From a virus, in IMG/VR virus record IMGVR_UViG_3300030333_004842, positions 1 through 30,902 of that record: a DNA stretch of 30,902 nt. One strand, 5' to 3'. The notes under the pieces are model-generated. The model was not told the origin of the DNA. It was given only the letters and a program-made list of their open reading frames with translations, and ran no database searches. The translations under genes were made by a program, and so were the position numbers. Below, in pieces: positions 3,710-30,776 of this stretch (position 1 is the first letter of the stretch; the number at the start of each line of letters is the position of its first letter).

Positions 3710-3934
3710 TCAATTACGCACTAATGATTTTAGAAGAGATTTTATCTCATCTAAATCACTTTTCATACTATTTACATCAGATTTTAAATCTTCTATTTCC
3801 TTCTTCTCATTATATTTTAATTTAGATACTTGAAGAAATTGATCATATTCATTAAAATTGTTATTAACAATAGCATTATTACTGACATCACGGAGTAATC
3901 CGTGATCAGATTCCACTTTCAAGTATTTCTTCAT
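3710..3934 (-). CDS. Small C-terminal coiled-coil protein, 74 aa
   Basis: The ATG overlaps the stop of the 2,521-residue gene by 4 bases (ATGA), a classic translational coupling. Residues 40-72 (KLKYNEKKEIEDLKSDVNSM then KSDLDEIKSLLKSL) form a strong predicted coiled coil with leucine and isoleucine at heptad positions. The N-terminal part (LKVESDHGLLRDVSNNAIVN) is more globular. No known family is recognised. Coupling to the large DUF4815-type gene suggests a partner or assembly factor for that protein. It is the last gene before the late promoter at 3700. Confidence 0.75.
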   Translation of the reverse strand: MKKYLKVESDHGLLRDVSNNAIVNNNFNEYDQFLQVSKLKYNEKKEIEDLKSDVNSMKSDLDEIKSLLKSLVRN

Positions 3935-6900: not shown

Positions 6901-9900
6901 TGTATATTGTAAATCAGGAGAATTCCAAGCACCAGTTTTATGATTGGACTGTGCTGCTCTAAATGTAATTGTTTTTGCTGCTATCTCAGATCCAATATTT
7001 GGAGTAATACTGGTAACTATATCTCCAGTATCAAATGACCCCCTAACCATTGTAATTGGTATCAATTTGGGTACACACCACTCAGTTACATCAACATTTT
7101 CCATAAAGACATAGTATCTGGTATTTGGTTTCATCCTCGTACCTTTTACTTCAATGTTTCTGGATCTATTATTGAATAATGCTTCGATTCCAGTTACTTT
7201 ATTTCCCAAATCTGTCGTATCAACTCTTGATGAAAGTTGAAGTCCGTAATCAATTTCTGCTCCACTTTGAGTAGTCGTTGTAGTAACTGTTGTAGTTCTT
7301 CTATTAGTTGTTGTAGTAGTAGTTCTAGTTGCAGTAGAATTAGTATCAATTTGAAAATCTCCAGTAAGACCAGGAGAACTAAATCCTCCAACATCAATTC
7401 TTGTCGAAGATCTTGATAATTGCTCTGCACTAGAACTAGAACTAGAACTATCACTAGTACTAGTACTTGAACTTGTTGTAGTACCACCCCAAACAGTTTC
7501 ACTAGTATTGAACATAGCAGCAGCCATACCGCCATTCTCTCTGTCCTCAACACCCATTACTGCTGCAATAGCATTAAATACCTCATCACCCATACTAATG
7601 ACTTCTGGGGTATCTGCAAGCACTTCATCTATCCAATAATCGGTAGATGGTCTCAATTCAAGTCTTCCATTAAAAGTTGTAACCATGAAAGGATTTAAGT
7701 TCTCAACTCTAGTTGCTAACGATTGTTGTATGAATATTTCATTATTATAAGCAAGTGTTAATCCTGGACCTCCTCTATTAATATTACTATCTTCAAAATC
7801 TCTAGCAATAGAATAATCAGTACTTAACGGACTAGTACTCGAAGAAGCAGTTTCAAACACTAAACTAACATTTCTCTCTGTACTTCTTGGTCTACATTCA
7901 CCTAATGTTAAATCAATATCAAATTTAGACTCACCACTAAAATTATGAGAAGCATGATTTCTAAAGTTATCTACATAGAAACCTGATTTAAATTTATCTA
8001 ATCCAGTATTTGGATCTTTAATTGCTAAATTCTTAGTATCAGTCTCAAGAAGAGAAAGTGTAGTATAATTCTCAAGATTCTTAATTCTATTTTCGAGACT
8101 ACCAATATGCTTCATGGTATATCTCTTATGAGGTATATACTCTGTTATAACACTAGAAGATGCATTAAGCATATAAGGTTTCATTGCTAATATAGCAACT
8201 TGCATTCCCTCATCATTAGGAAGAGGTGGTTTTGGTTCTAATGCTGCTTCTCCTTGTTTTAGTTCAAATGTACCATTTTTGGTTAGGTATAATGTATCAA
8301 TTCTTGGCAAATAATGACTATAATCTGCTACGATACTTCTATCTGAGACTAAAGTTTCTGTAGAAGAATCTGTAAAATCTCTACCATCAAAAGTAAATGG
8401 TGAACCAGCACCAGCATATGGTTTCACTCTTGGTCTTAAATCTAGATAATCTGATGCTCTAGAATCTATTACAAATGGAACTTCTCTACTGTAATCCATT
8501 CCATCATAACTAGAAACATTTTCAATGCTTCCTGGTTCTTCTACATTTGTATAATGGTCGAAAACTATCTTAAGTTTTCTTGTGGGTTCATCTGCTTCTC
8601 TAATTCTAATAAGACTACCTAAATCTACATATTCTTTTCTTTGTCCATTTTCCAATAGATAATTTTTTCCAATATTTCTATCACCAACAATTATTGAACT
8701 AATATCACCAACAATTTCAGAAGTTTTCAGTGTTATTGTTTCACCAATTTCAAATACTTTTTGATTTTCATATACAAATTCAATTTGAGTAGCACTAACA
8801 ATTCTAACAACACGTGCAAGTGATCCAGAATCATTTCCAATAAATTGCTCACCAATTACAACATTATTACCATCTAATGCACTAGAAGTATTAGATAATG
8901 TTAATGTTGGAAGTTGAGGATCAGTTGTATCATTAGATTCAAATACACCCATTACTCTATGAATTTCTGGATATCTTAATGATATTCTACTATCTTGAAC
9001 CCTTAAACCATAAGTTGCGTCATAAGTTAAACCATCACCAAATGTAGTAGATCCAATACCTGCTCCAGAATATTTTGATTTATCAACTATTAATTGTCTA
9101 CATCTAGTAATAGATTTCTCTTTATTGATAAGTTTTGTTCTTCTTACTGTTGCTGTTAATTTATAAGTTTTACTTGCAGTAACACCACTGATAGTTAAAA
9201 CTCTTAAATTTGCATCAATACTTCCCTGTTGATCAGTTAATGCAACTCTATTATTTGCCATAGTAGAATTACTATGGGCAGTTAACATATAATTATCCAA
9301 ACTATATGGTTCAAAATAAAGATCATTACCAGTTAATGTAAATGTAAGTACTCCAGCAGCACTAGAAGTTGCCTCAAATTGCTTTCTTGTAATATAAGAT
9401 GAATCTAGAAGATTTGCACTAGAAACCCAATTTTCTGGGAAAGGAACTCTATAACCAGGATTATCTGCTTGAAGTAATTCATTAGTAGCAACTTTTACAC
9501 CAGTAGGTGTTCCATCAGCAAGAGTACCATTACATATTCCAGTAACAGATTCTACAGCTGATAAAATTAATTTTGTACCAGCATTTGTGATGTTATCTAT
9601 TCTATTAAATCTTACTATAGTATCAGCAGCATTATTCCATTTAAGAATATCTCCAATTTTAACAAAATTATTAAAGTTAGCAATTTGAGAAGATATTGCT
9701 TCTGTTCCACTATTACTAATATTAAATTCAAATCCACTATCAAATACTTGTTTATCGTTAGTTAAATCTAAATCTGCAGCAAAAGTACCTACACCAACAG
9801 TAGTTTTCCATCCAAGTCCCTGACTATTTCTATGAATAGATTTAATACTATCAAAATCATATTCAATTAAAGATGTAATGTTTCTACCAGCATCTTTACC

Positions 9901-13121: not shown

Positions 13122-16100
13122 TTATGCTAGTCCCAAAAGTCTTGAGACATAGGCAGATGTTTCAATACCTGCTAATCCGTTAGAATTATAGTAACTGAAT
13201 GATTTAGAATTACTAGACCTAGAAACATTGATTGTTCCCCAAGTATAAGTACCACAATCAGGACGACCAGTTGCCCCAGAAATTGGTGCAGGTAATCCAG
13301 TAGTATCTATACCACTTAATGACTCAACATGACAAGTTACACGAAGTGTTGAAGCACCAACTCCAGTTGTGGTGAAATCAGCAACCTGATATACACCATC
13401 TATCCAAGTAGTACCCGTACCAACAATAGTAGATGTTGTTATACCCAAAGCAGTAACACCAGATCCTATTATTGTATTTTCAATAACAAAGAAGTCACCA
13501 GTATTTAATCCAGTTCTGGAAACTTCATTTTGTATATTCACTGCTGGATGTAAATCGAATATGAGTTGATGAGTTCCAACTCCCGTTTTTCCTGTATTAA
13601 TTCCAATAATTACACCATGATCACCAGTATAGGTAACTCTCTTTATTTCTTCATAGTTCAATACTCCAGTTTCTCCAGTTGCATCTCCAACTGAATTTCC
13701 AGAGGTAATTGTACCAGGTCCAACATTACCATCAGTATTAGATGTAATTGTAATAGCAGTCGATCCAAATCCAACGAGTCTAATATGATTTAAGTTTTGT
13801 CCAATATCATCATATGCATAGAATGTAGGATATATGTTTCTAACATATATTTTAGTATCAGTTGCACTAACTGGTGCAATTATATTTGTATTTGGAGTAA
13901 CTTCTGGTTCTAAGTATACCCTAGATTTTGAAATAGGTACACCATCAATAACTGTATCTGCTTGTTGTTTAGACCAAAGAACTGGTCTTGGTATATTTCC
14001 TAAACCATTAGTTGCAATTCCAGGTCCACCATATGTTTGTGTTTCTACAGAGTCAGAAGAAATTAATTCATATACAATCCTATCTTCTTGTGATGGGTAA
14101 CTTGGATCTATGATTGGATGTTGTTTTTCACCTGTATTTGGATCATAAGATACTGATTCACCATAAGTAGGTAAATTTGGTTGAATCATCAATGTATCGC
14201 CAGGTTTAATTGTTTCATCAATATCAACATCAAAATAATCATCCCTAGATGCAACATAAAGATACATTCTAACTTTACTTCCTCTTCTTGGAGCATCATT
14301 GAATGTTATTCTAGTACCTTGATCAAAATTATAATCAATAACTGGTTTTTGTAGAACATCATTTATGTAAACTAATAAATTATTTGCTAAAACTATTCCA
14401 GAATCTTTCTTAGCAATGATACTAAAGTAACCTTTAACACCACCAACAGTTCTAGTAATTAGGAATTGCTTTCTAAATCCATTAAACAAACTATCAAATG
14501 GATCCATTTCTAATAACTGGCCAACAGTCCATCCAGCAAATTTATCTTGGTGTCTATTTTTAACGGTTAATGTTAATGGAGTAGTAGAAACACCAACTTT
14601 ATATGGAACTGGGTTTAGAGATAGAACATCATTAATAGCATAACCAGAACCAGGATTTGATAATTCATACTGTATAGCACTACCACCAGTACCAACAACT
14701 ACGTCAAGTGTTGCTCCAGATCCCTGTCCACCAGTTAATGGTAAATTCTTCCAAGGTGAAGGTGGATCAATTGTAATAATTGGTTGATATGATGTAGTAT
14801 ATCCTGCTCCTGGATTAGTTACAGTTATACCAGTAACCATTCCATTGTCTATAGTAGCAGTAAACGATGCTCCAATACCTGCACCTCTTCCAACATTAAC
14901 TGTAATGGTATTTGTAGTAGCATTTGTGATTGCTGTCTGTATTCCTGCAACAGGGTCAGTTGTTCTTGGATAAGAATGATTAGTAGTATAACCATCCTTA
15001 GAACACTGGAATACTATAGTATTATTAGAAATTTGAACTGTATCGTTAATTCCTAATCCATGACCATTAATAGTTAATATTAATTCTCCAGTTTTGGAAG
15101 TATAATGTGCATACGATGGCGTGTAATTTGTTGATCCAGCAGAAACTACAGAATTTGGTGCTGCACTTACAAATTTATGATCATAATGATAATTTGTTAT
15201 TGCAACACTTACTTTAGGAGGATAAAGATATCCAGATCCACTATTACCAATACTTACAGATGCAATTGTTCCACCAACACCAACAGAAGCAATTCCAATT
15301 GCAGTAAATGCAGATTGGATACCAACACCAGGATTAATATCAAATTCATTAATTATACCACCTTGTGGTAAGTCTTTAGTAGCACCACCAACAAATGTGT
15401 TATTTGCATAAGTACCAGCAAATGTGATTGATGTACCTGCTCCTGCTATCTGATAATCAGAAATGTTTAAATTTGATCCACCTTCTCCATGATGAGGATC
15501 TTGCCAAATATTATTGACTAATACAAATCCATAATTTGTTGTTATTCCAGAAATCGTATTTCCATTACTTGTAATAAAGAAATCTCTTTCTTGACTATCA
15601 AATTCTTCTGAAAGATCATCAAATATAAAGTTTTTATCATACTTCAATCTATAGAAAGATCTTCCACTAAATGTTGATCTAGTAGTTAAAGATCCAATTC
15701 CAGTTGGTCCATATGGTGCATCTGTGAAATGTATTGTACCATTCTCGATCTTATAATCACCACTAACTACCGTTACTGCTGCTCCAACAGTGTGTGCAGC
15801 AGCTACACTACCCATTACACCCCTAAACACATTTAGAGCATTTGTAGACCCAACACCAACTGCTTCAACTTTAATTAATTCATTTTCAATTTTTATTAAT
15901 CCTGCTGATACTCTAGAAATATTATGTAAAAATACTTGTGTTGAACCAATACCAACTGCTGTTGATAATTGAAGAGGTATATTCTTTTTAAAAGTTAATG
16001 GACTTTGAATAACATTATCGATAGTTATTAAAGTTCTATTAGTTGCTAGTTCAGTTGGTACAGCAAATGTATGAGTGTTTCCAGTACCAACACTAGTAAT

Positions 16101-19100
16101 AGTTAAAGCAATACCAGAATTTGCATTAGAAGCACTAGATGCTAATTTAAACTTAGTTTTTTCTCTTATACCTTCATTTACACTTACTATAGCATACACT
16201 TCTTCTGGTAAGAAATTTGTACTAACTCCAGATATAGTTGTAGTGTCAATACCAATTCTAGTAAACCCATTAGAAGAATAAATTAAAGGTTCTCCAGTAT
16301 TAAATTCATTATTAGCAATACTAAATTCATTTTGAGTTAAATTTACTCCAAGACTTGGTTGAATAGTCTTAACAAATAATCTTTCTGTACTAACTCCTGT
16401 TGGTTCTACTCCCTTTTCGTCAATAGTATATAAATTGAAGGTTGATAATCCAACATTTTGACCACCAATAACTGGAGTATTAACGGTAACAGTAAATGAA
16501 TTTGTTGTAGTATTTCCAACTGATAATATACCATTATTAAATTTACTGTTAGAAGTTGATGCAGGGTCACTAGGACGAGGATATGGATGATCAGAACCAT
16601 AATTATCAAAATTGCATCTGAATATCATGGAATTATCTGTTATTGATACAGTTGCTCCATTAGATAATCCATGTGGAGTTGCAGTAACAATCGTCAATAC
16701 TCCAGTAGAAGCATCATAATCAGTTCCTCCAACTGGTGTTAAACCACCAGATCCACCAGTTATAACACTTACACTATTAGTACCAGCACTAATAAATGTA
16801 TGAATTCCTGTAAAAGTCTTATTTTTTCCTGTAAATTGATTAGCAATATCATCAATCATTAAAACTTTATTGGTTCTAGATTCACTATAATCAGTAAGAA
16901 CCTTTCCATCAAATACAATTATCTTAGAATATGTTGGATCATTAGTAGATTCCGTTACATTGTCATAATAATACCTTTCATATGTTGCTGCATCACTTTC
17001 AACTTTAATTTCTAAAGATACATCCCCAGAAAATGTTCCCATCCCAACAGTAGTTCCAACACCATTAAGAACTTCCAAATCTCCAAATGGTTTATATCCA
17101 GATATATGTCCAAGACTTGTAACTGGTTCTTTCCAACTATCAAATGGAACTTCTCCTTGAATAGCATATGAGAATCTTTGATAATAATCATTATTATGTA
17201 ATTTCTGATGATTTGAATTCAATTTACCCTTATCATCATCCCAAGTTGTTGATTTATTAACTATACTATCAACTGTAAGATCAAAATCAAAGTTATAGAT
17301 CTTTTGTGTTATTGATTTAGAATCAAGAAGAGAACTTGACACTTTCACACCTTCTTCAAAAACACCATTAACATCTTTTAATTTTAAAAGTTGAGATACT
17401 GGATCCCATCCATCTTTTGCTACTATTCCACTTGCATTTCCATTAATTTGTGATACTCTTTCACCTTCTACAAAATTAACTTTTTTAAGATTTGCAGTAA
17501 ACTTAACTAAATCACTTTCCTTAATAACTCTACCAAATACATTATTAGTATCAAATGTTCCTCCAGTACTTCCAATACCAGCTATAGAATATGATACTGA
17601 TTCATTACCACCAGTTGTGTTTATGGCACTAATTGTAAAGAAACTATATTCATAATCACTTGAATTATATCCATCCATACTATCAGTTATTCGGATATTC
17701 TCTACCCAAATTTTATCTCCAACTGCAAATGGGAATGTACTAAATCCTGTAACTGGTGCTTTTAGTTTTAATTGATTTACAGCAAAATTTGAACTAGCAT
17801 CTATCACACCAATTCCATTTGAATTAAATGTTGGAGCAAATTTAATATTTTTGGATAATCCACTGTCATTACTGACAATTTCTACACTACCAACGGTATT
17901 GCCATCCAATACTGCATTTAATGTAATCGAAGTATTTCCTATAGCAATAATATTTGGTCTAGACGTATAATTCCTTCCACCAGTTTCAACTCCTACAGAT
18001 TCTAGAGTATAAACATCTTTTAATTTTAATACAGTGAATACTTCTGCTGATGGTGTTAATGTTTTATCTGATGGATATTCAAATCCTTGATTTTCAACCA
18101 AAGTACCAACAATTTGTCCAATTTCATCAGATTCTTCCGAGAAAAGTGCTTCAGAACCAGTAGACCCAATTCCAACTATTTTAACTAAATTATTAGATGG
18201 TTTTAATTGATTTACTTCAATTGAATGAATTCCACCTTTTGCTGTTTCAGAATTAGTTGTATATGAGGCACTACTAAATCCTGCAGTATTGTATGATGTG
18301 GTTTCTGCAAATCCAACCATATTAAAGTCGAATGTTGTCGTACCTATTCCACTTATTCTTTGCAATCCATTAAATTTAGAATCCAATAACTTAATTGAAG
18401 AATAATCAACAACATTAGTATCTGTATGATCTAAACTATTAACAAAATTGGTAGATTTTCCAGAAACTTTATAGTAAAAAGTTGATGGTAAAGAATCATC
18501 TGTATTAATTGTTATTTTAGTAGTTGTAGCAGAATCACCAAAAACTCCTGTTTTAATAATTCGTGTACTGTCTATTTTTGAATTAAATTCTCTATCATAA
18601 TAAAAATCAATATCATAATCATCTAAACTTGGGTTTGAAACTCCTATAGATACGACATTTCCTCTATAAATTTTTATTCCTGGATTGATTCTCAATAACT
18701 CATGGTTTCCACTACCTGTAGAACTAAAAACAATGTTTTCTGAAGGAATTTTATCAAGTAATACTTTAGTTTTAGCAAGTCCAATAACATTATCAGATAT
18801 TTTTATAACATGATACTTAGTTTTATTTGATAATCCACCTATTGCATTTGCTGCTTTATAATAAACTACATCTCCAGTAACCAGTTTATGACTTGGAATT
18901 GTAATAGTAGAGTTTGTTCCAGTAGAAACTCCACTTGAAGCAAATTCCAATGGATTCACAACTAGTTTTCTAATTTCTGGATCGAATCTAAAGTCATAAA
19001 CATCAGTTAATTGTGGACTTACATTCAAATTTATTTCATCTTGTAATGCTAAATCATGTTTAACATCTAATAGTACAGATCCAAGAATTTTTTGTGCTTG

Positions 19101-22100
19101 TCCAGTTACATTAGTTGTAACTGTTTCAAATCTATGATCTTTTCCTTCAGTTTCTGCAGTAAACCAAACTGCTGTTGAAGTAAATCCAACTGCAGTAGAA
19201 ACACCAACCTTTTGTGTACTAATTCCAATAAAATCCTTATTCCACTTTATACAGAAGAATGTATTAATTCCAGTTATATCAAGTTGTGGAGTTAATGCAT
19301 CTGTAATAGAATACTTCAATGTACTTCCAACAGAAACATAACTTAATTGATCTCCAGTCTTAAATTCATGATCTGGAAGATAAATTGATCTTGCTGGAAT
19401 GGTTTTAGTGATTGTACTTAAACCAATATACCCAACTAAACGTGATTGTGCAGTACTACCAATACCAATAGATCCATCCAAATTGGTTGTTTGGTTTGGT
19501 ATAGATGGTCCTTCAAAATTGAACTTTTTGGAAAGAATTATATCTTTATTTGCTGTATTTGTTATTGGAAATGTAAATTCTTGAGGTAATTTTTTAACAA
19601 CTAATCCAACATTATGTGCTGATCCAGAAGTGCCTTGATGCATTCTACAAACTCTATATCTGTTATTATAATTGTCTTTATTGAGAATTATCATTCTCTC
19701 ATTACCAATCTGAATAACATCATTAACTTGGAATTTTGTGCTCCAAGATGGTTCTTTCAACCTTATGAATGTGGATATACCAGTTGTAGCAGTATTTGCA
19801 ATAGCAACTGAATTAGTTGTAATAGTTGTTGTTACTCCAATAAATTTTGATCCCTCAAGAGAAGAATAAGCAAAAGAAGTAATTCCAGAAATTTGAACTG
19901 CATCACCATCTTTATAAGCATGTGGAAGTGTACTAAAAGCAGTTGCAACATTATTTTTAACAGAAAATGTCAAACTATCAATAGATACTGAACTACTTGC
20001 AATAGAAACTATATTTTTACCAAGAATATCTTTAATTTTTCCATTAACAACATCAGAATCTGCAAACGTAACCGCATCACCAACACCATAATTATCTCCA
20101 GAATTATCAATGAATACTGTTGTCAATCCAGCACTCTTAACACTATCAATAATGATAGATGTTCCTGATTTTTTCGGTTCATTTAAGAATCTATATCTTC
20201 TATACTCATCATTTAAACCCAAATGAGTTACATTTCTCTTATAAGATCCACTATTTAAAAACTTATCAGACTGATCTATAAGGAAATCGTAATTAAAACT
20301 ATCAGTTTTATTAAAATGTTTTATAGTTGTATATGGATATTTTGGACTTGATGATCCAGTATCAGTATCAATTGTACTAAAATATACATATCTTCCCTCT
20401 GGAAAATCATCATTAATTACATATCTTCCATTATATTCATCTAAATCTCCACTACCCTCATCATAATCATAATCATCAATAAAGAAACCACTTGCTCCAT
20501 AAGAAGGTCTCAAATTATTATCACTTAATGCATTTAGAGTATAACTACTTTCAATTCTCTTTACTCCACCAAAATTACCATTTGCATCTGGAACAGGAAG
20601 AGCATTTCCATAAGGTCCATAAATTGGATTTCCATCATACGCCCAACCAATTATTGGTGAATGTTTTCTATCATCAGCAATTGCTTCTTCTTGATTTTCT
20701 CTTATATTATCACCCAAAATTGTTCTAAGATTCTTAGTTGCATAATAAGAAATTAATTTATTTCCCTTAATTTTTAAAGGAGCTGGTATTTGAACAGTTT
20801 CTTTGAAATTTGGATTAGATAATACATTATCATACCTTGGAATTGCGTTAACCTTCCATTCATGAACTTCTGCATCAATAACTCCATCTATTCCAGCAGG
20901 TGTTAACTTTACTGAAGTTGTAAGTTGAGTGTAATTATTACCTGGATTAAGAACATCAACAGAATTTAATTTTCCATCAACTATATTTACTCTAAGTTTT
21001 CCAAATTGCCCCTTATCAGTACTAATAACTTCAAGAATTGGTGGAGAAGTATAATTTTTACCTTCATTGACAACATAAGCACTTGATATCCTACCATCTG
21101 AACCTACTATACAATCAACACTTCCATCTTCACCTTCACCATTTTGTATGGTTAATTCAGGTTTTCTTACATGATTTAATATTGTAGAAACTCCATAACC
21201 AACACCACCATTCTTAATGAATACATTAGAAATTTTTCCTTTTACTACTGGATAAGCAGAAGCATTATAATAATTGGGAACTAAAGCACCTGCTGTAAGT
21301 CCAATACCAGTAGCAGTAGCACCTTCTATGGATACCGTTATATCTGAATAATTAAAAGTATGTGTTCCTACCCCAACATTACTAAAATCAATATAATCTT
21401 TATTTAAATAAGAAGTCTCATTCGTACTCAATCTAAATTTATCTCTATCTACAACAGTCACATAGTAATTGGTGGCATCTACTAATCCACCTATAACAGT
21501 ATTTGTTTTTGTATATTTTACTATTTCTCCACTCTTATAATTGTGATTTTTAGCAAAAATGTAATTATCAGAAGTATTAATTCCAACAAAAGTTGTCATT
21601 ATTCCACTTCTTGTAGTAGGTGGATATGGTTGTGCGTTAACCTCTACTTTATTAGTGGAAAATCCTTCTCCATGAGTTCTCAATACAATTCTATCTAATA
21701 TTTTTCTAGTTCTTGTTGCAGTTAATGTATGTGTTCCTGAACCATCATCTACAAAATCAAGTAAAAACTTTTTATCTATTGCTCTTTGTTTAGTTACAGC
21801 AAGAGAGAGATTACTTTCACTATTTTTAGCAACATAATAAATTCCTCCATTAACCAAAGAACTTGTGGATCCTGCTCCTGGTACTGGTGCTCCAACAGTT
21901 GTATTTGTGCTTCCTATTCCAATTGCATGTCCATCACTACTTACTGTGTAAATAACCTCTTCACCGTCTAAGAATCTATGCTCTTGATTTAAGGCAATTT
22001 TTCCAATTGTTGTCCCAAGACTTACTAAACTATCTCCAAATGAGACCACCTGAGTGAGATCTCCCATTTTTGCTTCAGCTACGACACCTTTACCATTACC

Positions 22101-25016
22101 ACCACTAACTGTTATTGCTGGTACATTTCTATAATCATATCCAGAAGAGGTTAGGACAATATCAGCAACATGTCCATCAGAAAGATGTAAATTTGGTTCA
22201 AATCCAGTTCCTGAAGTGTCAGCAACAGAAACATTTGGTGGATTAATTACATCATATTCCTTACCAGAATTTAAAACATTACACTTATCAATTTGTCCAT
22301 AATAAACAGCATCTTCAGAAATTGGAGAATTTAATTCTACTCCATTTAAAGAAACTCCAATTGAACCAACGATATTATCATTTTCTTCAATTTTTCGTTC
22401 TGGAGTCTTTAATATCCTTTTAAAATGATCTTGATTTTTTAAAGTTTTTCCTTCCCATAAAGAATATGGAGTGATTTTATGACTATCAGAGAACGTACCT
22501 ATACCAATAGGGTATTCTAAACTATCCCATAAAGTATTTGATGAAAATATATTATGCCTACTAATTGATAATCTTATATTATTATCATCAACTTTAGAAA
22601 CATAATAAGTTCCTGTTTCTATACCAGTAACACCACTATTAACAAGTACTCCACTCTGATTAACATAACCCAACTTAATTCCACTTCCACTTTGAGAACT
22701 TATTGGTTCATAATAAACCTTTTCCCCAGTAATAAATCCATGATTTGTTATCTGTATAGCACCTGGTGATTGATAAGATCCAGTAGTAACTCCACTAGTT
22801 GTAAATGTTTTTGATCTATCAGTAGTTTGTATTGATGAAGATGGATATCCAGAAAATGCAACATAAGCATTTTTATCTTTATCTAAGAAGGTATTTTGAA
22901 TATCTCCTAATAATATACCAGTTCCTAAATTTGAATCAACTAAGTTAATGTTCTTCTTTATAACATATTCATAACCAACTAATGGTGCTTCTTTCAATGA
23001 ACTTTGACTACCATTACCTTTATAATTGAATTTTGTTCCACTAATTATACTATCAACCTCCACATTAGTATCTAATGGTTTTCTAGTATATTTTTCAAAA
23101 ACATCAATTTTATCTCCTTTTTTCAAATAATGTAAAACTTTTGCTTCAATAACTCTTGAAGAAGTGTCAATTTCCTGAATATCTGTTTCAGAAACGTTGT
23201 TATAAATCCAACTATTAAATCTTATATCAGATTCTAATGTTTTTTCTCCAAGATGCTTTAGGGTAATTTTATCACCTTTCTTTGAGTATTTTGTATGTTC
23301 AAAATCTTTATCTATACCAACTACTGTTCCAAGAACACGCATTTGGCATGGTTTTGTAGTATCATTATCTTCATATGCATGTACAAAATCATTTCCAATG
23401 ATTAGTTGTCCTTCTCTTGATGTTGTTACACCAACGCAACCAAAGAATTGATTATATGATTTTGATGTATATTCTGCTTTTTGGTATACTCCATCAATAT
23501 CCTGGTACCAGAAAACTCCATTAGCACCAAACCCAATAGTAGAATCAACCGTTACTGTACTTAAATCACTAAACTCTGATCTAATTACCTTAGTTTTGTT
23601 AGATACTTTAAATTTACTCTTAACTGTTTCTTTGGATAAAAATATCTTATAATAAGTCTTATCATCCAAAAATACCTCTTCAACATTCTCAATTGCTCCA
23701 CTTGCGGTTGAATTTGTTAAGAAATCACTACTTTCTCCTTGATATAAGGTAGAAAATTGTAAATTCATGGGATTTCCACTAATTGCATCAACAATTATTT
23801 CATCAGAAGTTAACCAATTAGCATCTGATGCTGAAATTGTATTATCCCAAGGTTTGTTTACAGTTATTTGCTTACCAAAAAGAACTTTAAACAAAATATC
23901 TAAAGATTGGTCGGTTCCTTTTGATATAAAGAAGTCTTTTGCTCTAGTTAAAATATTTTCAATAGACAATCCAGTAGCAAATTTCCTATTTTCCACTCCT
24001 GGAAGGAAATTTGTCTTAAATTTCTTATAAAATTGCCCTAAAAACTCAAAATTAAGATTTAGTACACCTGTTGATAGATCATGTGCTGCTGCATTGGTTT
24101 TACTAAATGTTAATTCCTCTGGATTTCCTTCTGTCTCTATTTTAGAGATTCCACTAAATCCACGAGCACATCCAGTAAATGAATTATCGATAATATCGAA
24201 TAAAATACCAATAGGAAGATTTGCTGGTGGTGGATTAGTCCCTGCACCTGCATATGTTATTGTATGAGTAGGATCCCAGTTTAGGTTTGCAGTACTTATT
24301 GGTACATTACTAACAACTATTGTCCCTGTAGTGGCATCTGCTGCCAATATAAAGGTTCCTTTAGGGAATACTGGTAATTCTGTACCCTCATCATTTTGAT
24401 AGGTCGCTGTAAACGACATTCCTGCTTCAATTTTTGCAAAATTATCAGCAGCAATTTGATTTGGTTCAAGTCCAACAACTACAGTTGTATCAAGAAAAAT
24501 AGTTGTTCTCTTTAAAGTTTCATCAACAATAAATGCATTAGGATATTGAGGATTACTATCAGTTCCAGTACCAACTAAAACTGGATCTCTCTTTTTTTGT
24601 CCAACTGGATGTCTTGCATATATTTTTGTTACAGATTTATTACTATTTTTCCCAGTATATGTGATTATTTCATCATCAATCTTCAATAAACCATAAGTTA
24701 ATGGAAATCCATCATTATGATTTGTATAGATCTTTTGATCATAAGCAAAAACAGGAGCAGTAACAACTATAGGTGATTCTGGAGTACCTGTATCCTCTAA
24801 ATTAATTGTTTGTGCTCTTACAGTTTCAATTTCTGCTAGAGTTGATATATTTTTATATTCTGCAAGATTATCTGCTAGGTTAGTAGACCCATATTCACGT
24901 TCTTCAACAGCATAGTACTGTTTCAAGAAATCCTTAAACAGTGGATTATCTACATGAACGAATTCTGGAATCAAACTGCCCAGAATATTTGAGATTTTTA
25001 CTTTTTTATCTTGCAT
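13122..25016 (-). CDS. 7: Giant baseplate wedge protein in the gp7 position, 3,964 aa
   Basis: It lies between gp6 and gp8, where T4 has gp7 (1,032 residues). Near the N terminus, residues 12-45 (LGSLIPEFVHVDNPLFKDFL then KQYYAVEEREYG) and 357-384 (RAKDFFISKGTDQSLDILFK then VLFGKQITV) resemble a region in the C-terminal third of T4 gp7 (FYSTKGIEASYKFLFKVLY, from memory). The gp7 core thus seems to lead the protein, followed by about 3,500 added residues. These contain many beta repeats: about ten G..Y motifs; six copies of an H...tG..v.Y ... YyV ... G.gtH unit; two F.C..D.Y...H.YPR domains (about 2760-2850 and 3300-3380); and a YHYH-type segment SPIIGWAYDGNPIYGPYG near 1450-1470. The gene starts 3 bases after gp6. 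The gp7 assignment is moderate. Role inferred: wedge scaffold with a large exposed, perhaps glycan-contacting, extension. Confidence 0.85.
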   Translation of the reverse strand: MQDKKVKISNILGSLIPEFVHVDNPLFKDFLKQYYAVEEREYGSTNLADNLAEYKNISTLAEIETVRAQTINLEDTGTPESPIVVTAPVFAYDQKIYTNHNDGFPLTYGLLKIDDEIITYTGKNSNKSVTKIYARHPVGQKKRDPVLVGTGTDSNPQYPNAFIVDETLKRTTIFLDTTVVVGLEPNQIAADNFAKIEAGMSFTATYQNDEGTELPVFPKGTFILAADATTGTIVVSNVPISTANLNWDPTHTITYAGAGTNPPPANLPIGILFDIIDNSFTGCARGFSGISKIETEGNPEELTFSKTNAAAHDLSTGVLNLNFEFLGQFYKKFKTNFLPGVENRKFATGLSIENILTRAKDFFISKGTDQSLDILFKVLFGKQITVNKPWDNTISASDANWLTSDEIIVDAISGNPMNLQFSTLYQGESSDFLTNSTASGAIENVEEVFLDDKTYYKIFLSKETVKSKFKVSNKTKVIRSEFSDLSTVTVDSTIGFGANGVFWYQDIDGVYQKAEYTSKSYNQFFGCVGVTTSREGQLIIGNDFVHAYEDNDTTKPCQMRVLGTVVGIDKDFEHTKYSKKGDKITLKHLGEKTLESDIRFNSWIYNNVSETDIQEIDTSSRVIEAKVLHYLKKGDKIDVFEKYTRKPLDTNVEVDSIISGTKFNYKGNGSQSSLKEAPLVGYEYVIKKNINLVDSNLGTGILLGDIQNTFLDKDKNAYVAFSGYPSSSIQTTDRSKTFTTSGVTTGSYQSPGAIQITNHGFITGEKVYYEPISSQSGSGIKLGYVNQSGVLVNSGVTGIETGTYYVSKVDDNNIRLSISRHNIFSSNTLWDSLEYPIGIGTFSDSHKITPYSLWEGKTLKNQDHFKRILKTPERKIEENDNIVGSIGVSLNGVELNSPISEDAVYYGQIDKCNVLNSGKEYDVINPPNVSVADTSGTGFEPNLHLSDGHVADIVLTSSGYDYRNVPAITVSGGNGKGVVAEAKMGDLTQVVSFGDSLVSLGTTIGKIALNQEHRFLDGEEVIYTVSSDGHAIGIGSTNTTVGAPVPGAGSTSSLVNGGIYYVAKNSESNLSLAVTKQRAIDKKFLLDFVDDGSGTHTLTATRTRKILDRIVLRTHGEGFSTNKVEVNAQPYPPTTRSGIMTTFVGINTSDNYIFAKNHNYKSGEIVKYTKTNTVIGGLVDATNYYVTVVDRDKFRLSTNETSYLNKDYIDFSNVGVGTHTFNYSDITVSIEGATATGIGLTAGALVPNYYNASAYPVVKGKISNVFIKNGGVGYGVSTILNHVRKPELTIQNGEGEDGSVDCIVGSDGRISSAYVVNEGKNYTSPPILEVISTDKGQFGKLRVNIVDGKLNSVDVLNPGNNYTQLTTSVKLTPAGIDGVIDAEVHEWKVNAIPRYDNVLSNPNFKETVQIPAPLKIKGNKLISYYATKNLRTILGDNIRENQEEAIADDRKHSPIIGWAYDGNPIYGPYGNALPVPDANGNFGGVKRIESSYTLNALSDNNLRPSYGASGFFIDDYDYDEGSGDLDEYNGRYVINDDFPEGRYVYFSTIDTDTGSSSPKYPYTTIKHFNKTDSFNYDFLIDQSDKFLNSGSYKRNVTHLGLNDEYRRYRFLNEPKKSGTSIIIDSVKSAGLTTVFIDNSGDNYGVGDAVTFADSDVVNGKIKDILGKNIVSIASSSVSIDSLTFSVKNNVATAFSTLPHAYKDGDAVQISGITSFAYSSLEGSKFIGVTTTITTNSVAIANTATTGISTFIRLKEPSWSTKFQVNDVIQIGNERMIILNKDNYNNRYRVCRMHQGTSGSAHNVGLVVKKLPQEFTFPITNTANKDIILSKKFNFEGPSIPNQTTNLDGSIGIGSTAQSRLVGYIGLSTITKTIPARSIYLPDHEFKTGDQLSYVSVGSTLKYSITDALTPQLDITGINTFFCIKWNKDFIGISTQKVGVSTAVGFTSTAVWFTAETEGKDHRFETVTTNVTGQAQKILGSVLLDVKHDLALQDEINLNVSPQLTDVYDFRFDPEIRKLVVNPLEFASSGVSTGTNSTITIPSHKLVTGDVVYYKAANAIGGLSNKTKYHVIKISDNVIGLAKTKVLLDKIPSENIVFSSTGSGNHELLRINPGIKIYRGNVVSIGVSNPSLDDYDIDFYYDREFNSKIDSTRIIKTGVFGDSATTTKITINTDDSLPSTFYYKVSGKSTNFVNSLDHTDTNVVDYSSIKLLDSKFNGLQRISGIGTTTFDFNMVGFAETTSYNTAGFSSASYTTNSETAKGGIHSIEVNQLKPSNNLVKIVGIGSTGSEALFSEESDEIGQIVGTLVENQGFEYPSDKTLTPSAEVFTVLKLKDVYTLESVGVETGGRNYTSRPNIIAIGNTSITLNAVLDGNTVGSVEIVSNDSGLSKNIKFAPTFNSNGIGVIDASSNFAVNQLKLKAPVTGFSTFPFAVGDKIWVENIRITDSMDGYNSSDYEYSFFTISAINTTGGNESVSYSIAGIGSTGGTFDTNNVFGRVIKESDLVKFTANLKKVNFVEGERVSQINGNASGIVAKDGWDPVSQLLKLKDVNGVFEEGVKVSSSLLDSKSITQKIYNFDFDLTVDSIVNKSTTWDDDKGKLNSNHQKLHNNDYYQRFSYAIQGEVPFDSWKEPVTSLGHISGYKPFGDLEVLNGVGTTVGMGTFSGDVSLEIKVESDAATYERYYYDNVTESTNDPTYSKIIVFDGKVLTDYSESRTNKVLMIDDIANQFTGKNKTFTGIHTFISAGTNSVSVITGGSGGLTPVGGTDYDASTGVLTIVTATPHGLSNGATVSITDNSMIFRCNFDNYGSDHPYPRPSDPASTSNSKFNNGILSVGNTTTNSFTVTVNTPVIGGQNVGLSTFNLYTIDEKGVEPTGVSTERLFVKTIQPSLGVNLTQNEFSIANNEFNTGEPLIYSSNGFTRIGIDTTTISGVSTNFLPEEVYAIVSVNEGIREKTKFKLASSASNANSGIALTITSVGTGNTHTFAVPTELATNRTLITIDNVIQSPLTFKKNIPLQLSTAVGIGSTQVFLHNISRVSAGLIKIENELIKVEAVGVGSTNALNVFRGVMGSVAAAHTVGAAVTVVSGDYKIENGTIHFTDAPYGPTGIGSLTTRSTFSGRSFYRLKYDKNFIFDDLSEEFDSQERDFFITSNGNTISGITTNYGFVLVNNIWQDPHHGEGGSNLNISDYQIAGAGTSITFAGTYANNTFVGGATKDLPQGGIINEFDINPGVGIQSAFTAIGIASVGVGGTIASVSIGNSGSGYLYPPKVSVAITNYHYDHKFVSAAPNSVVSAGSTNYTPSYAHYTSKTGELILTINGHGLGINDTVQISNNTIVFQCSKDGYTTNHSYPRTTDPVAGIQTAITNATTNTITVNVGRGAGIGASFTATIDNGMVTGITVTNPGAGYTTSYQPIITIDPPSPWKNLPLTGGQGSGATLDVVVGTGGSAIQYELSNPGSGYAINDVLSLNPVPYKVGVSTTPLTLTVKNRHQDKFAGWTVGQLLEMDPFDSLFNGFRKQFLITRTVGGVKGYFSIIAKKDSGIVLANNLLVYINDVLQKPVIDYNFDQGTRITFNDAPRRGSKVRMYLYVASRDDYFDVDIDETIKPGDTLMIQPNLPTYGESVSYDPNTGEKQHPIIDPSYPSQEDRIVYELISSDSVETQTYGGPGIATNGLGNIPRPVLWSKQQADTVIDGVPISKSRVYLEPEVTPNTNIIAPVSATDTKIYVRNIYPTFYAYDDIGQNLNHIRLVGFGSTAITITSNTDGNVGPGTITSGNSVGDATGETGVLNYEEIKRVTYTGDHGVIIGINTGKTGVGTHQLIFDLHPAVNIQNEVSRTGLNTGDFFVIENTIIGSGVTALGITTSTIVGTGTTWIDGVYQVADFTTTGVGASTLRVTCHVESLSGIDTTGLPAPISGATGRPDCGTYTWGTINVSRSSNSKSFSYYNSNGLAGIETSAYVSRLLGLA

Positions 25017-25019
25017 TTC

Positions 25020-26936
25020 TTATCTTGTATATTTTGATGTACTTAAGAAACTTGATGGTGGTACATAAGTAACTCCAGATCTGTTAGAACCAGAAGAGAT
25101 AACATCTTCCAAAAGAGATAATGTACTATTCGCTGTAGTATCTAGCACAATATAAAGGTTCTGTTTTGCGACAATATCATTTGACTCAGGAATCACTTGA
25201 ATTTCAATCCTATCTGTAAGTCCAGATGTTGAAATCGATATAGGGAATAGTATTATTTCTCCTTTTTTGTAATCTACTGTACCAGCAGCATTATTGACAT
25301 AAAAAGGAACATCATTAACCATTTTGAAGAATTTTATTACTCCTGTTGTTCCAGTAGCACTATCTGGGAAATCAGTTAAGTAAAGATCACCATCAACTCC
25401 ATCAATCTTGAATGAAGAAGATTTTATATTAAATCCTTCCATATCCATATGGAATCTATTACCATAACATAACTCATAGTTGGCAAATTGGTTATATAAT
25501 GGAACTAAGTTCCTTCTCATCTTAAGATTTGTAATATTTGAAGTGACAGAATCACTAACTTTATCAATAATGTTCAATAATTTACTATATTTCAATCTTC
25601 CACCAAATTGATTAATATCACTGGATTTAGCATATGTAGATATTGCATTAAGAATACTTGATCGTAATCCTTCTTTAGTCTCTGCAAACCCTGGATCATA
25701 AGAAACAGTGCTTTCATACTCAACATAGAGATATTTCAAATCAAGAAATTCTTGTTTAATTCCAGCAACAGTATATTTTTTCAATCCAGACTTAATTGAT
25801 GCCTTTGATACATCTGATATAAATTCACCATTTTGTGGTTTAATTGTAATATAAACCTTTCCATATTCTGGTGGTTCTAGTTCTTCTCCACCATATGCAG
25901 AAACGGATTCGACATTTGAGTATAAAGATGGAATCAAACTCATATAATCATTGGCCGTCACTGCCCTCTGCTGAGACGCATAGACCCTTGGAGCAAGGTA
26001 TTTGATAGAATCTATGGATTCTATATCTGAACCGTTCTCAGACGATTGTACAGTGGTTATAAGAGATGTTCCTGTAGTAATATCCCTTTCCGATCCTGCT
26101 AATGTATATGTCAATCTACCATTGAATGTGAAATTAGCACTGCCATTTCCTTCTTCTCCATTTGTCACAATATAAGTAACACTTATAACACTTCCATTCT
26201 CAGGTTTCTTACCTAGAGTATTATCACCAAATAATAGTTGATATCTCTCATCAAGTATCTCTTGTACTAAGAATAACCTTGAATTTGCATCAACATCGAA
26301 GATATTATCATAACGATTGAATATTTCACTTGTCCCAAGTGGACTTGTTACTGTAACTCTGATAGAAGATGTGTCAATATTGGCATTTGGAAGCACATAT
26401 TTGGCATCTTTCTGTGAATCATCGACTGTAAATGTCTTTGTAAGTAAAGTTCCCTCACTAATTGGGATATTTGTGAATCTTGCTATACCATCTCCACCAA
26501 CATTAACAGCAATATCATCAGGAACTGAAAAAATATAGTCTCCATTCGTAACAGTACCCTTTGCAACTAGTCCTGCCTTTAATTTTACTAATTTTGGTAT
26601 GTTAACTAGTCCAACTTCTGCTATATAATCGTTTAAATCAACTGTAAAACTAATATTTGCCGTTGCAGATGTCTTTGATCGTGGGACATATCCAATATTT
26701 CTTGCTAAAGATACCACATTTTCCCTTAAAGTGGCACTATCAATGAACGATTCATTGACTGCCATGTTGGTATTATAGGCAGTAATGTAAGAATTATATG
26801 CTAAAGTATCGATTAATATAGAAAAGTTAGATCCCTCATAGTCAAAATCAGTAAAATTAGAGTTAGCTCTCAGATAATCCTTAATCTGATCACGTAAATC
26901 TATGAAATCTAAGTTAGTAAACTGATTAAATGACAT
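25020..26936 (-). CDS. 6: Baseplate wedge protein gp6
   Basis: The protein has 638 residues, close to T4 gp6 (660). The N terminus (DFIDLRDQIKDYLRANSNF then DFDYEGSNFSILIDTLAYNS, and SLARNIGYVPRSKTSA at residues 76-91) is the conserved gp6 and J-like opening. A second family signature, RAVTANDYMSLIPSLYSNVE then AYGGEE, lies near residue 330. In T4, gp6 dimers join neighbouring wedges into the ring that holds the baseplate together and moves during sheath contraction. The ATG overlaps the gp25 stop by 1 base (TAATG) and follows AGGA at a good distance. The length and both signatures are intact. Confidence 0.93.
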   Translation of the reverse strand: MSFNQFTNLDFIDLRDQIKDYLRANSNFTDFDYEGSNFSILIDTLAYNSYITAYNTNMAVNESFIDSATLRENVVSLARNIGYVPRSKTSATANISFTVDLNDYIAEVGLVNIPKLVKLKAGLVAKGTVTNGDYIFSVPDDIAVNVGGDGIARFTNIPISEGTLLTKTFTVDDSQKDAKYVLPNANIDTSSIRVTVTSPLGTSEIFNRYDNIFDVDANSRLFLVQEILDERYQLLFGDNTLGKKPENGSVISVTYIVTNGEEGNGSANFTFNGRLTYTLAGSERDITTGTSLITTVQSSENGSDIESIDSIKYLAPRVYASQQRAVTANDYMSLIPSLYSNVESVSAYGGEELEPPEYGKVYITIKPQNGEFISDVSKASIKSGLKKYTVAGIKQEFLDLKYLYVEYESTVSYDPGFAETKEGLRSSILNAISTYAKSSDINQFGGRLKYSKLLNIIDKVSDSVTSNITNLKMRRNLVPLYNQFANYELCYGNRFHMDMEGFNIKSSSFKIDGVDGDLYLTDFPDSATGTTGVIKFFKMVNDVPFYVNNAAGTVDYKKGEIILFPISISTSGLTDRIEIQVIPESNDIVAKQNLYIVLDTTANSTLSLLEDVISSGSNRSGVTYVPPSSFLSTSKYTR

Positions 26937-27340
26937 TATATCCTATTAGGTTGTAGTAAAAATTCTATAGTTTGTACTGGAAGTGGTACTCCTACAATAT
27001 CATAACGAATAGTAATGTATAAACCATTATAATCTGATTCAGTATCGATACTTATATCGGTTACATCTATTCTTGGTTCAAAGTTTGATAGTAATGTTGA
27101 TATCTCTTCTTCTAATGAAGCACCAATATCTGGTCCTACTACCTCAAATAGTGTATCTTCGATTGAAGTTCCCAATAATTCATTAAAAAACCTCTCGTCT
27201 AGTCGTGTACGACATAGATTTATGACTGATTTTTTAATTGCATCCTCATTTTTGAGAGCAATTATGTCATTCGTTACTGGATGTTTAGAAAATGATAGAC
27301 TAATATCCTTAAATGAACGAGATCTCTTGACTCTAGGCAT
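26936..27340 (-). CDS. 25: Baseplate wedge protein gp25 (GPW/gp25 family)
   Basis: The protein has 134 residues (T4 gp25 132). The conserved features are an N-terminal FKDISLSFSKHPVTNDIIAL, a helical CRTRLDERFFNELLGTSIED, and the EPR motif at residues 88-90 (NFEPRIDVTDISI), the family hallmark also seen in P2 gpW and type VI secretion TssE. The C terminus is a beta hairpin ending in QTIEFLLQP. Role: the wedge protein that sits against the sheath base and starts sheath polymerisation with gp6. It overlaps gp6 by 1 base. The T4 gene neighbours gp53 and gp5 are not upstream here; a 54-residue protein is. Confidence 0.93.
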   Translation of the reverse strand: MPRVKRSRSFKDISLSFSKHPVTNDIIALKNEDAIKKSVINLCRTRLDERFFNELLGTSIEDTLFEVVGPDIGASLEEEISTLLSNFEPRIDVTDISIDTESDYNGLYITIRYDIVGVPLPVQTIEFLLQPNRI

Positions 27341-28951: not shown

Positions 28952-29200
28952 AGGGGTTTTTAACAATTTTTTATATTCGGAATTTTTTTATGGGGCAATT
29001 GGGGTATTGGGGGTTTTTGAATATCCTCGGAATTTTTATAGCACACTCGATCTGGGTTCGTTGTAGGTTAGCTAAGCTCACTTTTTTATAACGCAACGCC
29101 CAAGGGCGTTAACACATAAGAACGCAAATAAACTGCTAATTGTTGATACTCAAATACGCAAATATGCTCTATATTGTTATTACATAAGACTGCAAATACT
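28952..29200. other. Non-coding stretch with G-runs, hairpin and short repeats
   Basis: No convincing gene is seen here. The stretch contains an 11-base direct repeat TCGGAATTTTT (28977-28987 and 29027-29037) flanking three G-runs (28992-28995, 29001-29004, 29009-29013). It also has an inverted repeat AACGCCC / GGGCGTT (29095-29110) and the 34-base-phased repeats described separately. No tRNA fold could be closed. Confidence 0.6.
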
Positions 29201-29248: not shown

Positions 29249-29449
29249 TTAGTCACCTCTTACGACTTTATAAGGTTCGTTATCATTTAAGACCCCGAAC
29301 ATGTCGTAGAAATCTTTATAACCAGAATCCTCATATTCTTGGAGGATTATGTTATAAAGTTCAGGAGAATAAGTGTTCATAAGTAATAAGAATTGAGAGA
29401 GAATTAAAGGACTGTTTATGTTACTTTGATTAGAGGATATTGCCCCCAC
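29249..29449 (-). CDS. Small protein with GTG start, 66 aa
   Basis: The frame opens with GTG, 20 bases inside the end of the 122-residue gene, with GGA about 10 bases upstream. The sequence (SPLILSQFLLLMNTYSPELY then NIILQEYEDSGYKDFYDMFG) looks like a small helical protein. I recognise no family. An internal ATG (MNTYSPELY, residue 24) is an alternative start but lacks a ribosome site. It is followed by a clear terminator, so it ends the operon of the 122-residue gene. Confidence 0.65.
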   Translation of the reverse strand: MGAISSNQSNINSPLILSQFLLLMNTYSPELYNIILQEYEDSGYKDFYDMFGVLNDNEPYKVVRGD

Positions 29450-29798
29450 AAAGTATCATTCCATCCCAGAAATCTACTGTCTGATTGTTGTTACTTTTGA
29501 AGTACCAATCCCACTGCTTTTGAAATACTTTGCAACCATAATCTATCTCACATAAAATAGCATTTAGTCGTGATTTTGTGGTGTTTGTTTGATAACCACA
29601 GGATGACAATTTCAACGCTTGATTGTTATGATCTAGGGTTGCAATTTGGTGACCATGTAGATAAACAGAACTGCAATTTGTGCTCTCATTGTATAACACT
29701 TCTGTGTTATCTTTTCTCCAATTTGTTTTATTGGAAAGAGCGAAATTCATTTGCTTTTCTATTAGTCTCATAGTGAAAATAAGGTTGTTAAGTAACAT
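29430..29798 (-). CDS. Conserved hypothetical phage protein, 122 aa
   Basis: The core NWRKDNTEVLYNESTNCSSV, YLHGHQIATLDHNNQALKLS, NTTKSRLNAILCEI and VFQKQWDWYFKSNN, then FWDGM, belongs to a small family that, from memory, recurs in marine phages. It shows a beta-strand 'vYLHGn.IA' and a helix 'TKSRLNAIL'. The function is not known to me. The first ATG gives 122 residues, but it has no clear Shine-Dalgarno. Met10 or Met17 (MNFALSNKTNW) could be the real start, since the recognisable core begins around residue 24. Confidence 0.75.
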   Translation of the reverse strand: MLLNNLIFTMRLIEKQMNFALSNKTNWRKDNTEVLYNESTNCSSVYLHGHQIATLDHNNQALKLSSCGYQTNTTKSRLNAILCEIDYGCKVFQKQWDWYFKSNNNQTVDFWDGMILCGGNIL

Positions 29799-29943: not shown

Positions 29944-30114
29944 TTATGAGAGATTTTGTATAAATCGTCTGAGGATTCTCTCTCCTTTGTTTATATCTTT
30001 CTCGAATTTTGTGTCCATAACTAATGCTAACTGTATGAACAGTTGTGCATAACACTCAGGAACTCTGATGTGCTTAGTGTTACCTGAGTTTGGAAACTTC
30101 TTCTTGAATGGCAT
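29944..30114 (-). CDS. Small protein with possible ribbon-helix-helix motif, 56 aa
   Basis: The open frame extends to 30240 (98 residues), but a promoter at 30149-30177 lies inside the longer version. I therefore prefer the ATG at 30114 (MPFKKKFPNSGNTKHIRVPE, then CYAQLFIQLALVMDTKFEKD and a basic end RRFIQNLS). The phrase KHIRVPECYAQLFIQLALVM resembles the strand and first helix of small ribbon-helix-helix DNA-binding proteins ('IrVPe...').  This is a weak, pattern-level match. GGAGG lies 20 bases upstream, which is too far for a normal ribosome site, so the start is unsure. If it is a DNA-binding protein, the repeats in and around its own promoter would be candidate operators. Confidence 0.55.
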   Translation of the reverse strand: MPFKKKFPNSGNTKHIRVPECYAQLFIQLALVMDTKFEKDINKGERILRRFIQNLS

Positions 30115-30128
30115 TACTTTTCTGTGCC

Positions 30129-30145
30129 TATTTGCCTCCTTATGT
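30129..30145 (-). repeat. Fifth copy of the repeat, inverted, at the 56-aa gene leader
   Basis: The minus strand reads ACATAAGGAGGCAAATA, fitting ACATAAGNNNGCAAATA exactly. It lies just downstream of a TATAAT element and contains GGAGG. It is in opposite orientation to the other four units. Confidence 0.55.
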
Positions 30146-30148
30146 GTT

Positions 30149-30176
30149 ATTATACCAGATCCACTAATTATTAGCA
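30149..30176 (-). promoter_or_regulatory. Sigma70-type promoter for the 56-aa gene
   Basis: The minus strand has TTGCTA, a TATAAT (30149-30154) and a 16-17 base spacer. It is close in form to the promoters at 28575 and 28923. The predicted start, near 30142, puts the fifth repeat copy at the very beginning of the transcript. Confidence 0.55.
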
Positions 30177-30273
30177 ACCCCTTGACATTTTTATGGTTTG
30201 ATGATAGAATGGTCGCCAAGATCACTAAAGAAAGTAACATTTAACATAAGGATTCTGAGAGGTTCTTAACACT

Positions 30274-30439
30274 TATTCCACACATTAAATATAACAATTC
30301 CACACCTTTTCCACACCCTAAGTATCATTAATTCTACGATTGTGGAAAACTAAGTAATAAACAGAGGTATATTTATAATGGCATTTAAAACATGTTTTTA
30401 CCCTTATTTCTGTGGAAAACTATCATTTTCTGTGGAAAA
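30274..30439. repeat. Cluster of six TTCCACA sites (DnaA-box-like)
   Basis: TTCCACA occurs on plus at 30276-30282, 30298-30304 and 30309-30315, and on minus at 30341-30347, 30411-30417 and 30431-30437. Four of them extend to TTTTCCACA (30307-30315; minus 30341-30349, 30411-30419, 30431-30439), one base from the E. coli DnaA box TTATCCACA and, from memory, the form found at cyanobacterial origins. The left three point one way and the right three the other, in very AT-rich DNA without a gene. The last two form a 20-base tandem (TTCTGTGGAAAACT). Confidence 0.65.
30370..30377 (-). promoter_or_regulatory. Possible T4-type late promoter
   Basis: The minus strand reads TTATAAATATACC, a perfect TATAAATA match. 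It lies inside the TTCCACA cluster. The nearest start downstream (30240 or 30114) is more than 130 bases away, so its role is less clear than for the other late promoters. Confidence 0.4.
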
Positions 30440-30440
30440 C

Positions 30441-30569
30441 TTACTTATAATACTTATTACATAGTCTCGTAATCTCTTTTCTCCAATATAACTTTTCTTC
30501 TTCACTTATCCAAGGTGAATGATAATTAATATAAGCATTTTGTATCTCTTTCTTATTACTTTCGTCCAT
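30441..30569 (-). CDS. Small unrecognised protein, 42 aa
   Basis: This short frame (MDESNKKEIQNAYINYHSPW, then ISEEEKLYWRKEITRLCNKY and YK) starts 7 bases after the 66-residue gene. Charged helices flank an aromatic centre. There is no strong ribosome site (AACTAAGT before ATG), so translation may be coupled to the upstream gene. Its stop is directly followed by the TTTTCCACA cluster. No family is recognised. Confidence 0.55.
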   Translation of the reverse strand: MDESNKKEIQNAYINYHSPWISEEEKLYWRKEITRLCNKYYK

Positions 30570-30575
30570 ACTTAG

Positions 30576-30776
30576 TTAACAATGTTCTTGTGTAATATCC
30601 CATACTTTAATATAACAGGATAACCAATCTTGTTGCTCTGATGTTAACTTAGTGTGGCAATCTGCATCCTTGTAATGAATACTTTCATAGAGTAAATCGT
30701 CTGCTGAAATGTATGGTAAGTCATGCAATGTGCAATAGTCTTGTAATACATTAGATAGAAAATCAAGTGCGTTCAT
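30576..30776 (-). CDS. Small hypothetical phage protein, 66 aa
   Basis: The protein (MNALDFLSNVLQDYCTLHDL, PYISADDLLYESIHYKD, then LTSEQQDWLSCYIKVWDITQ) has a helical layout with the 'lP.isADeLLyE' and 'Lt..Q..WL..f..vWd' phrases that, from memory, occur in small cyanophage proteins of unknown function. It starts 6 bases after the partial gene at the right edge and is followed 6 bases later by the 42-residue gene, so these form one unit. No Shine-Dalgarno is seen at the ATG. Confidence 0.7.
   Translation of the reverse strand: MNALDFLSNVLQDYCTLHDLPYISADDLLYESIHYKDADCHTKLTSEQQDWLSCYIKVWDITQEHC

Follow-up and report, generated by a model that had tools for sequence, protein, structure and literature searches.

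A host-type DnaA-box array in T4-like cyanophages is a candidate oriE-like site of replication initiation

Can a T4-like phage, equipped with a full replisome of its own, make use of the replication initiator of its host? The window analysed here, a stretch of 30,902 bases with 32.8% GC from an IMG/VR virus fragment, encodes gp6, gp25 and further baseplate genes of a T4-like cyanophage, and its gp6 matches best, at 55-56% identity, those of the Synechococcus phages Sf-FS3, S-SCSM2R and S-SSM7. It is part of a T4-like cyanophage genome, and we infer from the relatives of the phage that its host is a marine picocyanobacterium. Within the window lies a compact array of words resembling host DnaA boxes, upstream of the baseplate wedge genes gp6 and gp25 (25020..27340, minus strand). 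A host-DnaA-type array is not what would be expected of T4-like phages, and its presence suggests that the host initiator is either borrowed or sequestered.

The array (30274-30439) holds six copies of TTCCACA within 166 bp, at 30276(+), 30298(+), 30309(+), 30341(-), 30411(-) and 30431(-), four of them within the nonamer TTTTCCACA. Taken as nonamers, the plus-strand boxes are the variant TATTCCACA at 30274..30282, the variant AATTCCACA at 30296..30304, which follows after 22 nt, and TTTTCCACA at 30307..30315, a further 11 nt on; the minus-strand boxes are all TTTTCCACA and lie at 30341..30349 (34 nt past the box at 30307 and convergent with it), 30411..30419 (70 nt past that) and 30431..30439 (another 20 nt on). 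The left three boxes point right and the right three point left, giving a convergent layout. Elsewhere in the 30.9-kb window TTCCACA is found only at 2277 and 19921, and TTTTCCACA not at all. Among all 7-mers compared, these six copies form the densest 170-bp cluster in the window; in 300 second-order Markov shuffles TTCCACA reached at most 3 per 170 bp, and the maximum for any 7-mer was 5, attained in 1 of 60 such shuffles. Multiple copies of TTTTCCACA and DnaA-like variants are thus packed into a few hundred bases at a density above chance. The first-pass annotation had described six sites, four of them the nonamer, in two opposed triplets and too dense for AT-richness to explain. The window count and the shuffles, which never reached six copies, uphold that description, and the word is not dense elsewhere in the window, as the annotation had required.

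Conservation among close relatives is strong. Each of the five related contigs that include this site (L005, L006, L007, L010 and L011) retains the array, while three others (L008, L009 and L012) start too near the array site to be judged; the annotation had made its proposal depend on such conservation. In an alignment of the window with the four relatives spanning the array, 0 of 35 columns vary in the box 7-mers versus 29 of 109 in the spacers within the array (P=1.6e-4). The array persists in L006, L007 and L010 even though their upstream flank can no longer be aligned with that of the window.

The identity and spacing of the boxes connect them to the host. TTTTCCACA is the published cyanobacterial DnaA box (PMC4674748, PMC2275245, PMC6323995), which agrees with the first-pass annotation. 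In an unbiased search of all 9-mers at loci carrying the phrog_554 gene, TGTGGAAAA ranks first among clustered words, and the one-mismatch words enriched in phage arrays are TTATCCACA, the general or E. coli DnaA box (14x), TATTCCACA (21x) and ATTTCCACA (20x); most changes to the CCACA core are not enriched. Among direct spacings of 10-39 nt, 69 of 76 are phased at 11-12, 20-22 or 31-33 nt, where 20 would be expected. In the host family, 21 of 121 genomes have direct TTTTCCACA pairs, at 26 places in all, and none has pairs of the reversed word. Among the places whose sequence was examined, four are the region between dnaN and an adjoining gene, which was assigned as threonine synthase on the strength of the published Prochlorococcus origin, where dnaN and that gene are the flanking genes (PMC2836286). 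In these thrC-dnaN intergenic regions of Prochlorococcus/Synechococcus relatives the word recurs at the 11-12 and 21-22 nt phasing seen in the arrays, so that box spacing in the phages is comparable to that of host oriC; steps such as 22-12-21 and 12-21-11-21 occur in three of the four, and the first of these phrases is nearly identical to the 22-11-21 steps of the phage arrays L035, L047, L096 and L044. The phage arrays differ from cyanobacterial oriC in having no dnaN or thrC beside them and in their orientation, with box groups often convergent in phages and divergent at the best host oriCs; a search of 61 host-order genomes found no convergent pair with a spacing of 30 nt or less. A DnaA C-terminal domain was found in no phage tested, whereas the host has one, so a phage-encoded DnaA was rejected; the T4-like setting assumed by the annotation stands, in phages without a DnaA of their own. 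From these features we infer that the array would serve as a binding platform for host DnaA composed of phased cyanobacterial boxes.

The region upstream of Prochlorococcus dnaN was discarded as an oriC template because it holds weak boxes only, and other members of the host family were used for the comparison instead. In the Prochlorococcus genomes L396-L399 this region contains no perfect TTTTCCACA; its boxes are limited to a weak pair with a spacing of 30 nt, in which TTTTCAACA accompanies ATTTCCACA or GTTTCCACA. A second DnaA-box cluster, away from dnaN, is conserved in all four Prochlorococcus genomes checked (L244 3473-3525, L245 4541-4604, L246 3759-3822 and L247 3583-3646); it consists of TTTTCCACA and TGTGGAAAA separated by 44 nt, to which three of the four add a TTTTTCACA-type box 11 nt on. 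In L244 this second cluster sits between what we take to be DUF1818-like and EVE-domain-like genes.

Arrays of this kind recur well beyond the window. A blind scan of 2.9 million IMG/VR viral contigs for two direct copies of TTTTCCACA no more than 30 nt apart returned at least 120 stretches, and among those listed 48 encode T4-like cyanophage genes found near the array in the window, namely gp25, gp6, the phrog_1574 glycosyltransferase-like gene or phrog_554. Since these contigs were chosen by the box pattern itself, the scan speaks to occurrence and not to prevalence. Prevalence was estimated from loci anchored on phrog_554 (29430..29798, minus strand, in the window) and picked regardless of boxes: at least three boxes were present in 20 of the 40 loci having 2.5 kb downstream, and TTTTCCACA reached at least two per 250 bp at 19 loci, where 150 permutations of the word averaged 0.07 loci and peaked at 4. 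At glycosyltransferase-anchored loci, only 2 of 48 had at least two boxes in the 1.5 kb upstream. Among 16 named T4-like cyanophages, close pairs or triples of the exact word occur in S-PM2, Syn9, S-SM2, S-ShM2, S-SM1, P-SSM7 and P-TIM68, S-SKS1 carries TTTTCCACA-TTATCCACA-TTATCCACA in 21-nt steps, and the cluster is absent from P-SSM4, P-HM2, S-RSM4, S-SSM7 and Sf-FS3; it is also absent from T4 and from the T7-like P-SSP7. The box word is rare in the whole genomes of other cyanophages, at 0-8 copies each, yet in about half of them it is clustered upstream of gp25/gp6. Across many lineages the array precedes gene 6 by about 2.5-10 kb (3.3 kb in the window), with most cyanophage boxes intergenic and with layout and exact position differing between phages. 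The array is common but optional, given its presence in some named isolates and loci and its absence from others.

Phased TTTTCCACA pairs also occur on viral contigs without cyanophage marker genes, so viral DnaA-box clusters extend beyond the T4-like cyanophages. Closely spaced arrays without cyanophage baseplate genes were seen at L050 123-195, L094 4250-4460, L105 6127-6198 and L128 2165-2218; L050 also encodes an integrase, L094 a terminase and L128 a DnaB-like helicase, with boxes every 15 nt.

The transcriptional surroundings of the array depend in part on where the neighbouring gene begins. Upstream lies a small gene of unknown function, phrog_9962 (30576..30776, minus strand), and downstream a 98-aa open reading frame (29944-30240). 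In comparison with relatives, codons 1-41 of this frame show no third-position excess of changes and codons 42-98 do, so the small downstream gene (29944..30114, minus strand) probably starts at the Met at 30114 and not at 30240. A divergent promoter pair overlaps these apparently non-coding first 41 codons. With a start at 30114, a non-coding stretch of approximately 30115-30575 would hold both promoters and the array. One of the pair is an early sigma-70-type promoter, TTGACA-17-TAGAAT (30182..30210, plus strand; 11/12 matches, TG before the -10), which is antisense to the phage genes and aimed into the array from 64 nt away; an antisense early promoter occupies the same place in the five relatives that retain the array (L005, L006, L007, L010 and L011). 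Nearly back-to-back with it is the sense promoter TTGCTA-17-TATAAT (30149..30177, minus strand; 10/12 matches, TG before the -10). In a survey of strict TTGACA-type promoters around 94 distinct phage clusters, 27 antisense promoters lay 50-150 nt to the downstream side and pointed into the cluster where about 0.7 were expected; related phages were counted separately, so exact significance cannot be read from these counts, though the effect far exceeds that concern. Sense promoters peak farther from the clusters, at 100-250 nt.

Between the two box groups of the window lies a T4-type late-promoter-like motif, NATAAATA (30370..30377, minus strand), identified with the consensus of PMC2984593. 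The late-promoter-like TTATAAATA is invariant in 6 of 6 relatives, and 15 of 65 arrays have such a motif no more than 80 bp away, compared with 5% of random stretches; a constant late promoter common to all arrays was rejected on that count. In two phage arrays (L035 13089-13218 and L104 5018-5146) a strong sigma-70-type promoter separates the main array from another group of 2-3 boxes.

The position and surroundings of the array bring to mind oriE of T4. The annotated T4 oriE is at 79355, 1.7 kb upstream of gene 6 (81081), and its primer RNA is complementary to the gene 5 transcript. It contains evenly spaced 12-nt iterons of ill-defined role, apparently needs an early promoter and tolerates the loss of gp59 with little effect (PMC3016281). 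The cyanophage arrays share with it the location upstream of gene 6, the evenly spaced short repeats, with another repeat sequence, and an early promoter oriented to give RNA antisense to late genes, a likeness that for the cyanophages is one of sequence. They differ in that the T4 iterons have no assigned binder whereas the cyanophage repeats are host DnaA boxes, and in that oriE lies inside gene 5 whereas most cyanophage boxes are intergenic. In the way it would work, the array is a cross between T4 oriE and the box platform of a host oriC. T4 itself was considered as a parallel for the E. coli box TTATCCACA and rejected, as it has three isolated sites and no cluster.

We consider it an even prospect that the array is a host-DnaA-binding, oriE-like site of replication initiation used early in infection. 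In this model host DnaA would first bind and oligomerise on the helically phased boxes, a step for which the identity of the boxes, their variants and their spacing speak strongly. The host-sigma-70 early promoter would then transcribe into the array antisense to the phage genes, yielding an RNA that could prime the leading strand as an R-loop, while bound DnaA may open the DNA or keep it open and may aid helicase loading; R-loop priming and opening by DnaA are modelled on T4 oriE. Finally, the phage replisome (gp43, gp41, gp61 and others) would take over, and late replication would turn recombination-dependent; in T4, takeover by the phage replisome followed by recombination-dependent late replication is established. 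P1 and iteron plasmids are extrachromosomal replicons with host DnaA boxes that use host DnaA together with their own Rep. The cyanophages would putatively resemble them in having host DnaA serve an extrachromosomal replicon, and differ in possessing a full T4-type replisome and no known Rep. The broader proposal, that many T4-like cyanophages start replication at a captured or convergently built host DnaA-box platform in the place of oriE, with the host initiator launching a T4-type replisome, we hold tentatively, at slightly less than an even chance.

In favour of an initiation site we count box identity, host-oriC phasing, the enriched variants, the invariant boxes, position, the antisense promoter and the lack of a phage DnaA; on the other side stand the roughly half of surveyed phages without an array, several isolates having none, together with the missing DnaA-trio, the slight AT excess, the variable layout and position, and the frequent convergence. 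Features of a bacterial-type origin are largely wanting: only phage genes, and neither dnaN nor dnaA, lie beside the array, the DnaA-trio motif is not enriched at the arrays, and no clear unwinding element is evident, the AT excess beside arrays being about 0.06. A bacterial oriC proper was rejected on these three grounds. In P-SSM7 and Syn9, GC skew is monotone with no switch at the array, where genes lie on one strand and mask replication skew. Loss of the gp59 helicase loader was also rejected as a reason for DnaA use, since most isolates encode gp59 whether or not they have an array.

What favours the initiation site over other functions is the antisense promoter together with the synteny to T4 oriE. 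One alternative, which we judge unlikely, is a titration decoy: multiplying phage genomes would soak up host DnaA, so that the host chromosome begins no further rounds of replication and nucleotides are saved for the phage. E. coli datA, a DnaA titration locus, is likewise a cluster of DnaA boxes away from oriC. Boxes that are dense and perfect, an array that is optional and variable in layout, and the lack of a DnaA-trio, a clear unwinding element and an origin-type skew (masked as it would be by one-strand genes) would all suit such a role. A decoy could sit anywhere, yet the arrays lie upstream of gp25/gp6 in many lineages and adjoin an antisense promoter, so that, in contrast to datA, they recur in a fixed genomic neighbourhood beside a promoter; a single cluster of 3-8 boxes per genome would, moreover, provide few sites at early times. 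Comparably improbable is a transcription switch in which array-bound DnaA represses or activates the divergent early promoters or the internal late promoter. DnaA is a transcription factor in bacteria, divergent early promoters flank the array, and a late promoter lies inside it in the clade of the window, but the boxes are mostly downstream of the antisense promoter and not over it, most arrays have no late promoter, and the host-oriC phrasing exceeds what an operator needs. Arrays do lie in early promoter regions, as would an operator bound by some phage-encoded regulator with a coincidental preference for TTTTCCACA; this is very unlikely, because the same word, variants and phasing recur at host thrC-dnaN oriCs, the word is the DnaA box of the literature, and no candidate regulator was found. 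That the cluster arose by chance, or is a neutral leftover in AT-rich spacer DNA, would fit the many related phages without an array, but has a negligible probability given the Markov shuffles, the permuted-word control, the invariance of the boxes among relatives and the recurrence of the array across many lineages.

As an initiation site, a conserved host-DnaA-box array at an oriE-syntenic place would provide a specific, testable candidate for where cyanophage replication starts and a direct link between phage replication and host replication control, with wide bearing given the abundance of T4-like cyanophages in the ocean. Our literature search, which did not reach subscription papers, found no paper linking DnaA boxes with T4-like cyanophages; a single theta origin was predicted for Syn9 in its genome paper, as cited in PMC2984593.

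Two further features of the window deserve mention. Three 23-nt repeats (GTTAACACATAAGAACGCAAATA) lie in 34-nt steps at 29108-29198, and a copy in inverted orientation, at 30129-30149, is reminiscent of a shared 5' leader (TAACACATAAGGAGGCAAATA). The baseplate/tail region also encodes two very large proteins, of 2521 aa (3931-11496) and 3964 aa (13122-25016).
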